Position numbers and translations under genes: made by a program. Below are positions 3,048 through 29,700 of a DNA stretch of 47,635 bases, piece after piece. The notes beneath the pieces are model-generated. The model searched no databases, was not told the DNA's origin, and was given only the letters and a program-made list of their open reading frames with translations. The stretch covers positions 1 to 47,635 of the forward strand of contig CANFCB010000005.1 of the NCBI GenBank assembly GCA_947445025.1, written 5' to 3'. The stretch is from Myxococcales bacterium (GTDB lineage: Bacteria; Myxococcota; UBA727; JABDBI01). Each line of letters opens with the position of its first letter. Position 1 is the stretch's first letter.

Positions 3048-4142
3048 TTATTCGTCAAACAGCCAAGATAATTGTGTGTTTGGTCCAAGCTCATCAATGA
3101 CGTGTCGTCTAAATAAACGTTTTAAACGCGTGGCCAGCTGCCCCATACGTTGCTTGGAAACACCGTAACGGGACCCAAGTTCGACGAGGCTTATGGGATT
3201 ATTTGAAATTAAATGTTCATTCCAAATTGCAATATCACGTTCATTGATCAAATTTTTTTGAAAACGAATAACAATTTTTTGGATGGTTTGCTGAACCTGT
3301 TGGCGTGAAGTTTGTTCTTCTGGATTGTATCCAGTGGACAAAATGGTGTCTTGTAAAGTATTGGCAGTGTCGCCGCCAAGTGGTGCCGACAAACTTGCTT
3401 CGCGTCCTTCTAGGCGCGATAAAATAAGCGCAATTTCTTTAGGGTCTTCGCCGGTTTCTTGCGCAATCAATTGGGCAGTCGGCTCTTTTCCCTGTGCCAG
3501 CAAGCTCCTTCTAATTTGCGGCAAAGAAAAATAAACTTTGCGTCCGGCGCGGGTATTGCCAGTATGAATTAATCGAGAGTTAGTCATCAGGAATTTAGTG
3601 AGCTGTGCGCGAATCCAATAGGCTGCATAAGTTCCAAAACGTGTTCCCATATCGGGATTCCAGCGTTTGGCGGCAATAGTTATGCCGGCCGAAGCTTCTT
3701 GAACTAAGTCCATTAAATTAGTCCATGAACGTCGGTATTGATGGGCCATTTTAATGGCGAGACGCATGTTGTGCAGTACTAATTTTTTAGCAGCTTTATC
3801 ATCGTTAAAATCACGCACTCTGGTTCCCAGGGCATGTTCTTCCTCTTCTGAAATACGAGGAATGCGTGTGGCTTCGCGCACAAAGGCGCCGTACAAATCA
3901 CTGGAAACATTGGTGTCTTCACTTGACTGCTTAAGTGTCTCAGCGTCGTCATCAATGCTGGTGTAATCTGCGTCCTCAGGCAGCATCCACTCACCCTGGG
4001 CGTCTGCTAATTGCATGGCCGGGCGTTTGACTAGAGCCTGTTCATTCATATCGATAATTAGATCAGCGTCATCAAAGTCTAATAACTCATCATCGGGATT
4101 TTCATTTAAAACTGGGGGTTTCTTAGGATGTTTTGGTGCCAT
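3048..4142 (-). CDS. RNA polymerase sigma factor, RpoH/sigma-32-like
   Basis: A sigma-70 family factor directing RNA polymerase to alternative promoters. Residues ~1-85 are an acidic extension not usual in RpoH. Region 1.2/2 follows (EEEHALGTRVRD, then the region 2 core QEASAGITIAAKRWNPDMGTRF and YAAYWIRAQLTKFL), then region 3 and a region 4 helix-turn-helix (VELGSRYGVSKQRMGQLATR). The lack of region 1.1 and the spacing of regions 2 and 4 point to the sigma-32 branch, although 364 residues is longer than the usual ~290. The start at 4142 is chosen because AAAGGAG lies five bases upstream. It overlaps the 3' end of the HD-protein gene by 20 bases, suggesting coupled expression. The exact subgroup is not certain. 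Confidence 0.85.
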   Translation of the reverse strand: MAPKHPKKPPVLNENPDDELLDFDDADLIIDMNEQALVKRPAMQLADAQGEWMLPEDADYTSIDDDAETLKQSSEDTNVSSDLYGAFVREATRIPRISEEEEHALGTRVRDFNDDKAAKKLVLHNMRLAIKMAHQYRRSWTNLMDLVQEASAGITIAAKRWNPDMGTRFGTYAAYWIRAQLTKFLMTNSRLIHTGNTRAGRKVYFSLPQIRRSLLAQGKEPTAQLIAQETGEDPKEIALILSRLEGREASLSAPLGGDTANTLQDTILSTGYNPEEQTSRQQVQQTIQKIVIRFQKNLINERDIAIWNEHLISNNPISLVELGSRYGVSKQRMGQLATRLKRLFRRHVIDELGPNTQLSWLFDE

Positions 4143-19501: not shown

Positions 19502-20293
19502 ATGAGCAAAAGAGCGTTTGTCGATTCCCCAATCATTGATGCCGTAAAAGTGGATCAGACCGTGCTTTTAGATGAAGACACGACCCACCGTTTCTTGCGG
19601 ATTTTAAGGCTTTCGTCGGGAACGCCCGTGGAATTATTCGATGGCACTGGTCGAGTGGCCCGAGGAATTTTACAAACCCAAGCGCCGGCACATATGACCC
19701 AGGTGCAAGTTGAATTTTTAGTAGAAAACGGACCGCCTATTGTGTTGGCACAGGCCATGGTCAAGATGGATAAGCTGGAGCAAATCGTGCAACGCAGTAC
19801 CGAGCTTGGCGTTAGTGAGATTCTGCTCTTCGACGCCGAGCGCAGCCAAGTAAACTTTAAGGATAAAGCCGAGCAAAAGTTAGAGCGTTTAGCGCGTATT
19901 GCCAAGGATGCCGCACGTCAAAGCGAACGCAGCCATACGCCTGCGGTGTCTGGGCCACACAGCTTTGCCCAGTTGCTTAAAATCTGTGCCGATTTTCCGG
20001 GGCTAAAAGTCATGGGTGATTTAAACGGCACGCAAACTTTGCCAGCGCTCTTGTCGCAAGCTTTGTGTAAACAAGGCGTGCTGGTGATAGTGGGCCCGGA
20101 AGGTGGCTTGGCGCCCGCAGAGTTGTTAGAATTAGCAAGTCACGAGGTAATTGCAACCATCTGGAATCCCAACGTGCTGCGCACCGAAACAGCGGGCATG
20201 GCAGCGATAGCGGTTATTCAAGGGTTGACGTTCGAGTTGGCTTCATTTTTCAAGCTCCACAGCGACGAGAGAGGCATTGCCCATAAATTATGA
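19502..20293 (+). CDS. rsmE: 16S rRNA m3U1498 methyltransferase, C-terminus replaced
   Basis: SAM-dependent SPOUT-fold methyltransferase acting on U1498 of 16S rRNA. A PUA-like N-terminal domain contains THRFLRILRLSSGTPVELFDG. The SPOUT knot contains IVQRSTELGVSEILLF, then the SAM-binding VIVGPEGGLAPAELLEL and LRTETAGMAAIAVIQ. The family core is complete up to residue 241. The last 22 residues are not native: they come from an inserted ATPase gene. The ancestral ending (GFKGAYSARS, stop at 21659-21661) is still readable beyond the insertion. Activity is probably kept because the lost tail lies outside the conserved motifs. Confidence 0.93.
   Translation: MSKRAFVDSPIIDAVKVDQTVLLDEDTTHRFLRILRLSSGTPVELFDGTGRVARGILQTQAPAHMTQVQVEFLVENGPPIVLAQAMVKMDKLEQIVQRSTELGVSEILLFDAERSQVNFKDKAEQKLERLARIAKDAARQSERSHTPAVSGPHSFAQLLKICADFPGLKVMGDLNGTQTLPALLSQALCKQGVLVIVGPEGGLAPAELLELASHEVIATIWNPNVLRTETAGMAAIAVIQGLTFELASFFKLHSDERGIAHKL
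20176..20226. repeat. 51-bp direct repeat flanking insertion, left copy
   Basis: Identical over 51 bases to 21583-21633. It is native rsmE coding sequence covering LRTETAGMAAIAVIQG. It forms the left border of the ATPase insertion. Confidence 0.95.
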
Positions 20294-21498
20294 CCAAAAG
20301 GAAGAATCTTGTCTCCCTGATACAGAACAATTCCTCTGCTAAATTTTGTTGGTAGCTCGTTTTGCAACATACGCATGGTTTGAAAATCGTTTTGTGTGAC
20401 TGTTTGTCTTGCTTTTACTTCGATTGCGATTAGTGTTCCATTCGGTTTCTCGATGATAAAGTCAATTTCCTGATTATTGTAAGTCCGAAAATGGAAAAGA
20501 GTTCCTTGGTGCGCAAAAGATAACTGTTTTAGTAATTCTGAGGCCACAAAATTTTCAACTATTTTTCCCAAAAGTTCTGATTGTTGATTTTGAATTTCTT
20601 TAACATCGACACCAATCAAATTACACAACCCTAATGTGTCATTTAGGTAAACTTTAGGTGATTTCACTAAACGCTTACCGATATTGCTGTACCAAGGAGG
20701 AATTGTGTTTAACAGAAACACGCCTTCAAGTAAGGAGCGGTAGCGACGAAAAGTCATGGTATTAATACCTAAATCAGAGGCCATCGAGGCGTCGTTTAAA
20801 AGTCCACCAGCTCTTGCAGCAAAGCTTCTTAGCATTTTTGGTAATAAATCTATTTTTTCAATTTCGGCAAGAGAACGAACATCTCGTTGTAGAAGAGTTG
20901 AAAAATAATTATCAAACCATCTCAGCCTATTTAAATTCGGATCGCTAGCGATTTGAGGAAAAGTAGCCTGCTCAATTATGTCAACCAGATTCATTTGACA
21001 GGCAGGTTCCATTTTAAAATTAGTCTGCGTTGATAAGATGGCATTGATAAAATTTGCATTTAAACCCAAGATTTCGCAGCTGGATAAAGGAAATAAAGTG
21101 ACGATATCAACACGGCCTACTAGCGCATCTGACAATTGTGGAAGTGCAAGAATATTGGCAGAACCAGTTAGCAGGAAACAGCCGTTGGCATCTGTTGGAT
21201 GCTGGTGGCGCTTCTCGTCAATGAAAAGTTTAAGTGCGCGAAATAAAGAAGGTACCAATTGAACTTCATCGATCACGGTAAATCGTCGAAATTGGGAGAG
21301 AAAACCCTTGGGGTCACTTTGGGCAGCGGATAATATTGACAGATCATCAAACGATACGTATTCGCCGCCCAATTGCTTTAGCACTTCATGCGCCAATGTG
21401 CTTTTCCCTGATTGCCTGGGTCCATTTAGAAAAACGGCGGGATAATTTTTGAGACTGTCCATGATAAGTGGCTGAATAATACGATTAAATTTCTTCAT
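20218..21498 (-). CDS. AAA ATPase with DUF4143 domain (AAA_14 family)
   Basis: The N-terminal P-loop has Walker A GPRQSGKST (residues 26-34), Walker B FTVIDEVQ (~73-80) and an LLTGSAN sensor. A winged-helix-like middle (LGINTMTFRRYRSLLEGVFLL) follows. The C-terminal DUF4143 region has a PD-(D/E)xK nuclease-like pattern (QEIDFIIE ... IAIEVKA). The family is widespread and patchily distributed; its role is poorly defined. The protein is 426 residues. Its last two codons and stop (AAC CCT TGA) lie in host rsmE sequence, so it has no stop of its own. It probably starts from a leaderless transcript: the -10 box is six bases from the ATG and no ribosome-binding site is seen. Confidence 0.9.
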   Translation of the reverse strand: MKKFNRIIQPLIMDSLKNYPAVFLNGPRQSGKSTLAHEVLKQLGGEYVSFDDLSILSAAQSDPKGFLSQFRRFTVIDEVQLVPSLFRALKLFIDEKRHQHPTDANGCFLLTGSANILALPQLSDALVGRVDIVTLFPLSSCEILGLNANFINAILSTQTNFKMEPACQMNLVDIIEQATFPQIASDPNLNRLRWFDNYFSTLLQRDVRSLAEIEKIDLLPKMLRSFAARAGGLLNDASMASDLGINTMTFRRYRSLLEGVFLLNTIPPWYSNIGKRLVKSPKVYLNDTLGLCNLIGVDVKEIQNQQSELLGKIVENFVASELLKQLSFAHQGTLFHFRTYNNQEIDFIIEKPNGTLIAIEVKARQTVTQNDFQTMRMLQNELPTKFSRGIVLYQGDKILPFGHNLWAMPLSSLWSLKNEANSNVNP

Positions 21499-21582
21499 TT
21501 GTAATTTATAACAGTTGCTGTGGTAATTTACAACAGTTGCTGTGATAATTTTAGAATTGATTGTTTTTCTAGGGAATTAGTG
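20227..21582. mobile_element. Single-gene insertion (ATPase/DUF4143) with 51-bp target duplication
   Basis: A 1356-base segment inserted at the junction of convergent rsmE and rsmI. It is bounded on both sides by a perfect 51-bp copy of rsmE sequence. It carries one gene and its promoter repeats, with no transposase and no terminal inverted repeats that I can see. The left end cuts into the ATPase coding sequence and the right end stops beside the copy that restores the rsmI stop codon. The mechanism is unknown; a 51-bp duplication is far longer than ordinary transposon target duplications. Confidence 0.75.
21501..21544 (-). promoter_or_regulatory. Tandem 22-bp repeats forming the ATPase promoter
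   Basis: Two direct 22-bp units (21501-21522 and 21523-21544, one mismatch) abut the ATPase start. Each contains the palindrome ACAG-CAA-CTGT. On the minus strand, TTGTAA in one unit and TATAAA in the next are separated by exactly 17 bases, a good -35/-10 pair that ends six bases before the ATG. The palindromes could be operators for autoregulation. A third, partial unit follows at 21545-21553. Confidence 0.55.
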
Positions 21583-21633
21583 GCTGCGCACCGAAACAGC
21601 GGGCATGGCAGCGATAGCGGTTATTCAAGGGTT
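21583..21633. repeat. 51-bp direct repeat flanking insertion, right copy
   Basis: Perfect copy of 20176-20226. Its last base is also the last base of the rsmI stop codon. Reading on from it in the rsmE frame gives the displaced native end of RsmE. Confidence 0.95.
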
Positions 21634-22487
21634 TAAGGGCGCCTACTCAGCGCGTTCTTAATTTGCAATACCAGTGCGTAGGCTTGTTTGCTGCTCATGT
21701 CGGTTTTTTGTGCAATGTGTTTAGCAATTTCTTTTGGGGTTGCACATTTTTGCTGCATTAAAGCGGCAATTTCTTCTTCAATGATCTCGATGGGGCTATT
21801 TTCAGCAGCGACGTCGCCTCCTTCCACGACAATTACCGCTTCGCCTTTTTCCACAAAGTCGGGCAAGAGCGGTTGCCCTAAAATGCCGCGGTGAAAAGTT
21901 TCAAATTGTTTGGTTAATTCTCTAGCGACAACCACGCGTTTAGGGCCGCACCATTTAAAGAGATCAGCCAAAGTTTTTTCCACGCGATGAGGAGATTCGT
22001 AAATGACCAGGGCCAAGCTCGCCGCTCTGGCGTTTTTAATAAGGCGTTCACGCTCTTTTCCCTTTTTGGCTAAAAAGCCCAAAAAAGCAAAGCGTGTGGT
22101 GATGAGGCCTGCGCCCATGAGAGCAGCTATGATGGCGGAAGGGCCGGGGATAACTTCAATCTGGTGACCTGCGGCAACCACCGCCTCGACGAGTCTGCCC
22201 CCGGGATCGCTGATAACCGGAGCACCAGCATCAGAAATCAGCGAGATGATATCGCCTTTTTCCAGGCGTTCTATGACGAGTTGAATACGATTTTCTTCTT
22301 CGTGCTGCGCGCAAGAAAGCAGTTTAATATTTCTAAGATCCACATGAAGTGCTGTGAGCAGCTTTCGGCTATGGGAAATGTTTTCTGCTAAGATCATCGT
22401 CGATGATTTCAACGTTTCAATAGCACGTAAAGAAATATCGCCTAAATTGCCAATTGGGGTGCATACAATTTTTAATACGCCTGCCAT
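21633..22487 (-). CDS. rsmI: 16S rRNA 2'-O-ribose methyltransferase (C1402)
   Basis: SAM-dependent tetrapyrrole-methylase-fold enzyme that modifies the ribose of C1402 in the ribosomal decoding centre. Signatures are CTPIGNLGDISLRAIETL at the N-terminus, LISDAGAPVISDPGGRLV near residue 80, PGPSAIIAALMGAGL, and IYESPHRVEKTLADL. A short C-terminal helical domain (KEIAKHIAQKTDMSSKQAY) completes the 284 residues. It overlaps yraN by 16 bases and was originally convergent with rsmE with a 29-base overlap, before the insertion. Confidence 0.95.
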   Translation of the reverse strand: MAGVLKIVCTPIGNLGDISLRAIETLKSSTMILAENISHSRKLLTALHVDLRNIKLLSCAQHEEENRIQLVIERLEKGDIISLISDAGAPVISDPGGRLVEAVVAAGHQIEVIPGPSAIIAALMGAGLITTRFAFLGFLAKKGKERERLIKNARAASLALVIYESPHRVEKTLADLFKWCGPKRVVVARELTKQFETFHRGILGQPLLPDFVEKGEAVIVVEGGDVAAENSPIEIIEEEIAALMQQKCATPKEIAKHIAQKTDMSSKQAYALVLQIKNALSRRP

Positions 22488-28686: not shown

Positions 28687-29700
28687 CTACATCATGTAAA
28701 ATTGGCCGTTGTCTATAAGAAATACTATGTCTTTGATGATAGTTTGTTGTATTTTTGGGATTTGACTAGCAAAATCCTTACTCGCAGTAGCGCGTGAGTA
28801 TTTTGTCCTTGAGATGGAATTTATAATGCCTCGGACAATATCGTCGCGCCTTTGTATGCGTTTATTCAGTAAGCTATCTTGAACCATTTCGACTGCCCTG
28901 TCCATTGTGATGCTGGCGAATATCTCCGGTGCCGCTGCTGCCTCTGTCTCTGGCATTGTCTCGCTGCTGGTATCTATTACTGAATTGTCAGTGAGCTGTT
29001 CGACTGCTTGCTCGACCACCATTTCGACTGCTTGCTCGACCACCATTTCGACTGCTCTGTTCATTGTGAGCCTAGCCAAGATTTCCGGTGCCGCTACTGC
29101 CTCTGTCTCTGGCATTGTCTCGCTGCTGGTATCTAGTACTGAATTGTCAGTGAGCTGTTCGACTGCTTGCTCGACCACCATTTCGACTGCTTGCTCGACC
29201 ACCATTTCGACTGCTTGCTCGACCACTATTTCGACTGCTCTGTTCATTGTGAGCCTAGCCAAGATTTCCGGTGCCGCTACTGCCTCTGTCTCTGGCATTG
29301 TCTCGCTGCTGGTATCTATTACTGAATTGTCAGTGAGCTGTTCGACTGCTTGCTCGACCACTATTGCGGCCGGCCTAAGACCATTAAAAATAGTTCTGTG
29401 TATGACTGCCCGGTACTTGAAGGCTAATCCTAGGCTGCCAATAATTAACGCACCAACACATACGGTAGCAATTGCTTCAGAAGTAAGCCATGCATTACTA
29501 TTTTGAATATTTGGAGCAATTAGCGCAAGCGGGTAGTTAGGTTTATCAACCGCTTCGGTATCTTCGTCGTCAATAAAAAAGGGAACGCTGACAGGATTGT
29601 CGACGTCAGTTTTAAAAAAAATAGGCTGCGCCCAAGTTGCGCTTGAGAAAAACAGTGAAATAATTATAAATCGTGACGAGAGAAATTGAATTAATTTCAT
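28687..29700 (-). CDS. Exported membrane protein with nested tandem repeats
   Basis: A 337-residue protein of unknown function. Signal peptide (cleavage near ATWA, residue 24), an acidic mature start, and one membrane helix at ~75-95. Residues 114-272 are three blocks of 45, 61 and 53 residues. Each block is one to three copies of the octad VVEQAVEM/Q (n = 1, 3, 2) followed by the same 37-residue core (LTDNSVIDTSSETMPETEA ... MNRAVEM). The C-terminal ~60 residues are basic and non-repetitive (RIQRRDDIVRGI). The repeats are probably helical. Expansion in 24-bp steps keeps the frame. A CAAGG sequence about nine bases upstream of the ATG may be its ribosome-binding site. Confidence 0.75.
   Translation of the reverse strand: MKLIQFLSSRFIIISLFFSSATWAQPIFFKTDVDNPVSVPFFIDDEDTEAVDKPNYPLALIAPNIQNSNAWLTSEAIATVCVGALIIGSLGLAFKYRAVIHRTIFNGLRPAAIVVEQAVEQLTDNSVIDTSSETMPETEAVAAPEILARLTMNRAVEIVVEQAVEMVVEQAVEMVVEQAVEQLTDNSVLDTSSETMPETEAVAAPEILARLTMNRAVEMVVEQAVEMVVEQAVEQLTDNSVIDTSSETMPETEAAAAPEIFASITMDRAVEMVQDSLLNKRIQRRDDIVRGIINSISRTKYSRATASKDFASQIPKIQQTIIKDIVFLIDNGQFYMM
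28882..29361 (-). repeat. Nested in-frame DNA repeats (24-bp unit within 111-bp core blocks)
   Basis: DNA of the three protein blocks is nearly identical, with only scattered single-base changes. The 24-bp unit encoding VVEQAVEM is present 1, 3 and 2 times ahead of successive 111-bp cores. This indicates recent unequal crossover or slippage. Confidence 0.85.

Follow-up and report, generated by a model that had tools for sequence, protein, structure and literature searches.

The minimal mobile element of Neisseria requires homologous conserved genes on both sides of its cargo, whereas a duplicated gene end is not required. A second arrangement, termed “insertion with long target duplication,” was described for restriction-modification genes of Helicobacter pylori (Nobusato et al., 2000, as cited in PMC1643837 and PMC3031569). 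Among candidate defense genes, PDC-S01, an ATPase fused to a PD-(D/E)XK domain that is classed in the literature as a defense candidate, is reported to be the fourth commonest defense across prokaryotes, and most PDCs are still pending validation (PMC12988326). Though PDC-S01 is very common, the spread of such lone genes without mobility genes is a puzzle. A fresh insertion with readable ends, together with other insertions in its genome and clean parallels on phage contigs, makes the movement of lone defense genes countable and testable.

Such an insertion lies in the tail of rsmE, close to rsmI, in the window, the whole 47,635-nt stretch of DNA analyzed here, which represents one contig of a draft metagenome genome of a Myxococcales bacterium (1.085 Mb, 43 contigs, 73% complete). 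As the first-pass annotation had reported, the 51 bp at positions 20176–20226 recur exactly (100%) as a direct repeat at 21583–21633 (both on the + strand), with the copies 1407 bp apart. An exact 51-bp pair at this distance cannot have arisen by chance, and a scan of the entire assembly returned just a handful of same-contig direct repeats of at least 51 bp. Copy 1 is joined to the body of rsmE, an RNA methyltransferase gene identified by its reading frame and a Pfam Methyltrans_RNA match (19502–20293, + strand, E = 3.5e-42), while copy 2, together with the original final codons and the stop codon behind it, constitutes the displaced original 3' end of the gene in its reading frame (21583–21661, + strand). 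Between the copies lies a 1356-bp insert (20227–21582) that consists of a single gene and the 84 bp 5' of its start. The convergent rsmI gene (21633–22487, - strand, Pfam TP_methylase) is intact, and its stop codon contains the last base of copy 2. Deleting 20227–21633 (1407 bp or 469 codons) yields an rsmE frame that ends in GFKGAYSARS with its stop at 21661 and overlaps rsmI by 29 bp, so that the proposed restoration is confirmed by the frame. We infer an empty rsmE-rsmI site from this restored frame; among the relatives checked for such a site, the nearest belonged to the same family only (RsmE, 48%). In present rsmE, the last 9 codons have given way to about 22 codons that the insert supplies. 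The RsmE C-termini of relatives stop soon after the LRTETA motif and, consequently, the restored and the present C-termini are both plausible in length.

A comparison of the two insert ends revealed no terminal inverted repeats linking them, and analysis of open reading frames and Pfam domains identified the ATPase gene as the sole gene of the insert and no transposase, confirming the earlier description of an ATPase gene with its upstream region. Both insert and gene are present as a single copy, and no paralogue exists in the genome that could have served as a guide to the unit ends. An integron cassette was rejected as the 51-mer folds no better than shuffled sequences and thus gives no sign of a folded attC-like repeat, and an integrase-borne island was set aside because no tyrosine integrase was found in the insert or in the 73%-complete genome. 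Elsewhere in the window, tandem repeat arrays are found at 28883–29368 and 63–164, with spacings of 24 bp and 54 bp.

The entire assembly was read and scanned for direct repeats flanking small cargo. Perfect copies were found in two cases only, which look equally fresh: the 51 bp at rsmE and a 45-bp repeat at the 3' end of icd, which stops 1 bp beyond the icd stop codon and encloses a HigB-HigA pair (contig C11, 11538–12344, locus L098; HigB_toxin, PADLOC PD-Lambda-2 A/B). A gene for an endo/exonuclease/phosphatase has its end duplicated as 78-bp copies (97%) on either side of an ankyrin gene, and a toxin-antitoxin pair (Gp49 and HTH_37) is located at the 3' end of murG (contig C6, 33558–34902, locus L080) between copies of about 95%, the second of which is decayed; here, the similarity stops exactly at the stop codon. 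Three more cargo genes lie between older-looking copies (68 bp, 91%; 57 bp, 88%; 80 bp, 84%). The cases with imperfect repeats (84–97%) look older as a group and could have other origins. Cargo and target gene converge in six of the seven cases in this genome, and in about five of the seven the repeat ends no more than about 8 bp from the target stop codon. Of the 17 pairs of repeats on the same contig, many were set aside as RHS-like repeats, tandem arrays or paralogues. Judged by eye, repeated segments on contig C8 (34423–36860) may belong to an RHS-type locus whose C-terminal cassettes are displaced. A relative genome of 1.19 Mb (G003) offered weak candidates only, namely a rimO-like gene with a 74-bp repeat of 80% and one 29-bp pair.

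The same duplication around other small genes indicates that it is not tied to the ATPase and that the route is cargo-independent. The suggestion that the ATPase family defines the mobile unit does not hold, as HigBA, the Gp49/HTH pair, the ankyrin gene and others show the same architecture in this genome. These loci also bear on a metagenome assembly artefact, which a draft genome in 43 contigs might bring to mind. Such an origin is extremely improbable: the reading frames, the upstream region and the convergent gene ends form a coherent whole, repeats of differing length (45, 51 and 78 bp) occur at several loci, and both junctions require real reads.

The inserted gene (20218–21498, - strand) encodes a candidate single-gene defense protein of 426 amino acids that has the Pfam domains AAA_14 and DUF4143 and was assigned to PDC-S01 by PADLOC, and its TGA stop codon falls within the left repeat copy and is therefore supplied by copy 1. 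The best PADLOC model is PDC-S01 (E = 1.5e-136), with residues 3–416 of the protein aligned to positions 11–420 of the 422 in the model. An AAA+ ATPase domain (AAA_14) is followed by an HTH-like middle part and a PD-(D/E)XK nuclease domain (DUF4143). Comparisons of 24 to 30 homologues showed K32, D77 and E78 of the Walker motifs as well as E344, D346 and K362 to be invariant and E360 to be nearly so; the nuclease pattern reads E344-x-D346 ... E360-x-K362. An AlphaFold2 model (pLDDT 89.8, pTM 0.91) has the archaeal AAA+ ATPases 2fna and 2qen among its best PDB structure matches, with modest global TM-scores, while a sequence search of the PDB with the ATPase returned no match. The family is patchily distributed, as had been supposed. 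Most likely, the ATPase is cargo retained for phage defense, its candidate function, rather than its own mover.

Directly 5' of the PDC-S01 start codon, repeat analysis identified two tandem 22-bp repeats (CACAGCAACTGTTRTAAATTAC; 21501–21544, - strand). Homologues of the window type carry upstream arrays in the same placement with a period of 22 or 23 bp and differing sequence, and some homologues on viral contigs have an array as well. In 21 of the 30 homologues tested the array reached P of about 0.05 or less against shuffled sequences, and nearly all homologues without an array belong to the more distant ones. On inspection by eye, more distant homologues seem to carry palindromes in place of the array. 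The array is interpreted as a putative operator bound by the PDC-S01 protein itself. In a limited literature search, no description was found of the 22-bp array or of the sharply bounded unit mobility of PDC-S01.

Such mobility is evident in the Rhizobiales, where PDC-S01 units of 1.4–1.5 kb that are 92–99% identical occur at differing places in three lineages (Agrobacterium and Rhizobium plasmid units: L088, 2735–4235, L130, L131 and L132; L136 and L138; L135, L141 and L142). A 1.5-kb unit of Agrobacterium recurs with 96–99% identity in at least four places, a 1.36-kb unit of Rhizobium sp. AB2/73 (92.6% identical) occupies the 3' end of pyc on one plasmid and also occurs elsewhere, and a 1.39-kb unit of Rhizobium is 96% identical at differing places. 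Similarity breaks off abruptly at both ends of these units, which hold the array and the PDC-S01 gene and little besides. The pyc-type unit extends to the pyc stop codon, next to a dif-like TTATGGAACT sequence, and the Agrobacterium unit is bordered on either side by tRNA-T-arm-like sequence (24 nt, 83%). None of the three types exhibits a long flanking duplication. The proposal that PDC-S01/DUF4143 genes form single-gene mobile units elsewhere is nonetheless borne out by these examples.

Together, array and units raise the question of self-mobilization, in which the AAA+/PD-(D/E)XK protein would be a transposase-like enzyme that binds the 22-bp array and cuts about 51 bp apart. The protein indeed combines an ATPase, an HTH-like part and an intact nuclease motif, nearly all window-type homologues have the array, and sharply bounded single-gene units exist in three Rhizobiales lineages. 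However, HigBA and ankyrin cargo show the same duplication in the Myxococcales genome, the array is present on the 5' side only and the Rhizobiales units lack the long duplication, which makes this scenario very unlikely.

Long direct repeats had also been expected around homologous ATPase genes. With a flanking direct repeat of at least 30 bp at 85% within 500 bp as the criterion, repeats were detected at five of 89 PDC-S01 homologue loci compared with one of 1400 random windows (Fisher p = 4e-6), a rough test, since the control windows were drawn from two genomes in the same family as the window and the homologues from many genomes. The expectation thus holds for five loci and fails for the other 84, which likewise speaks against an ATPase family that defines the unit. 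Only two of the five are clean. At L249, on a phage contig, PDC-S01 lies between 32-bp copies (94%) of a phage gene 3' end in the same convergent orientation as in the window; a search for its empty site returned the contig itself alone. At L273, the gene is flanked by copies of 134 bp (92.5%) that derive from a convergent intergenic region; this repeat appears attC-like by eye, yet it folds no better than shuffled sequences and was rejected as an integron attC. The remaining three (L087, L178 and L299) are ambiguous. At L178, the 287-bp repeat was rejected as a clean target duplication because it is dispersed in its genome. In this 6.9-Mb relative (G013), about 17 near-full-length copies of the 287-bp repeat were counted, most of them with 71–76% identity. 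At L299, also on a phage contig, PDC-S01 is located beside a terminase-like gene, a 76-bp fragment of which is copied beyond it (1463–1538 and 3378–3453); this repeat is thus a piece of the terminase, and its arrangement does not fit a target duplication.

Taken together, the rsmE-rsmI event is probably an insertion with long target duplication that proceeded by a cargo-independent route of DNA capture in this lineage. The earlier view that a long target duplication arose by a mechanism unlike that of an ordinary insertion sequence is thereby supported. As to the particular capture step, we tentatively propose that the target would be opened such that its two ends are separated by tens to hundreds of bases, either by distant nicks or by a repair or replication fork that, having copied the cassette, returns to the target upstream of its exit point. 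The cassette would then be joined in, and copying of both sides would produce the long direct repeats. Whichever enzymes would act in these steps, and in whichever order, survivors are found at gene 3' ends, mostly in convergent arrangement, presumably because the target gene and its neighbor both stay functional there, and purifying selection may remove the others. Ku was not found in the 73%-complete genome, and Ku-based end joining was therefore set aside.

Repeat ends near stop codons argue against a random staggered cut, unless selection causes this position, and are better explained by incoming DNA that brought its own gene 3' end. Homologous import, in which donor DNA already carried the target gene 3' end adjoining the cargo, thus deserves attention. 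A homologous crossover in the 3' end combined with an illegitimate joint, or a single crossover with a circular molecule, would leave two copies of the 3' end, resembling a Neisseria minimal mobile element with added homology-assisted illegitimate joining. The coincidence of most repeat ends with stop codons, exact in murG, keeps this a serious rival, and copy identities that range from 84 to 100% and the presence of DprA in the genome speak for it. On the other hand, identity in the two cleanest cases is 100% over 45–51 bp and breaks off abruptly, the rsmE copy stops 27 bp short of the rsmE stop codon, ComEC was not found, though the genome is just 73% complete, and the nearest ATPase relatives found are distant (about 40%). 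On this evidence, import is the less likely origin of the rsmE-rsmI duplication, albeit one with an appreciable chance of being correct.

Gene 3' ends, with icd among them, are classic integrase targets. A tyrosine-type recombinase acting in trans could accordingly have inserted circular cassettes at such sites, in which case the repeats would represent attL and attR, and the tRNA-T-arm-like ends of the Agrobacterium units would agree with this type of site-specific integration. However, Phage_integrase remained unmatched in the insert and the 73%-complete genome, the repeats are highly variable in length, and seven unrelated targets without a common core would call for many specificities, so that this explanation is improbable.

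Insertion with long target duplication thus remains the preferred reading, and it might be extended to a single transposase-free machinery that spreads small defense genes, such as PDC-S01 and toxin-antitoxin pairs, as minimal cassettes into gene 3' ends and duplicates these ends. This extension is doubtful at present; if true, many cargos would depend on one undescribed machinery, which would account for the wide spread of single-gene defense systems.

Among known systems, insertion sequences share target duplication with the rsmE insert, which differs from them in having neither transposase nor terminal inverted repeats and in a duplication far beyond 2–14 bp. With the minimal mobile element, which in sister strains would place different cargo between the same two conserved genes, it would have in common the exchange of cargo without mobility genes. 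The undescribed kind of mobile unit that had been suspected has a precedent in insertion with long target duplication (Nobusato et al., 2000; PMC1643837; PMC3031569). As far as that system is portrayed in the papers citing it, both involve a small defense-type unit without transposase and long direct target copies of variable length; it is known there for restriction-modification cargo, which is usual but does not strictly define the system, whereas the cargo here comprises PDC-S01, toxin-antitoxin and ankyrin genes. Unlike the Helicobacter cases as they are related in these papers, the present ones are situated at gene 3' ends and occur several times per genome. The event is therefore a variation on the known insertion with long target duplication and not a new class of transposon.
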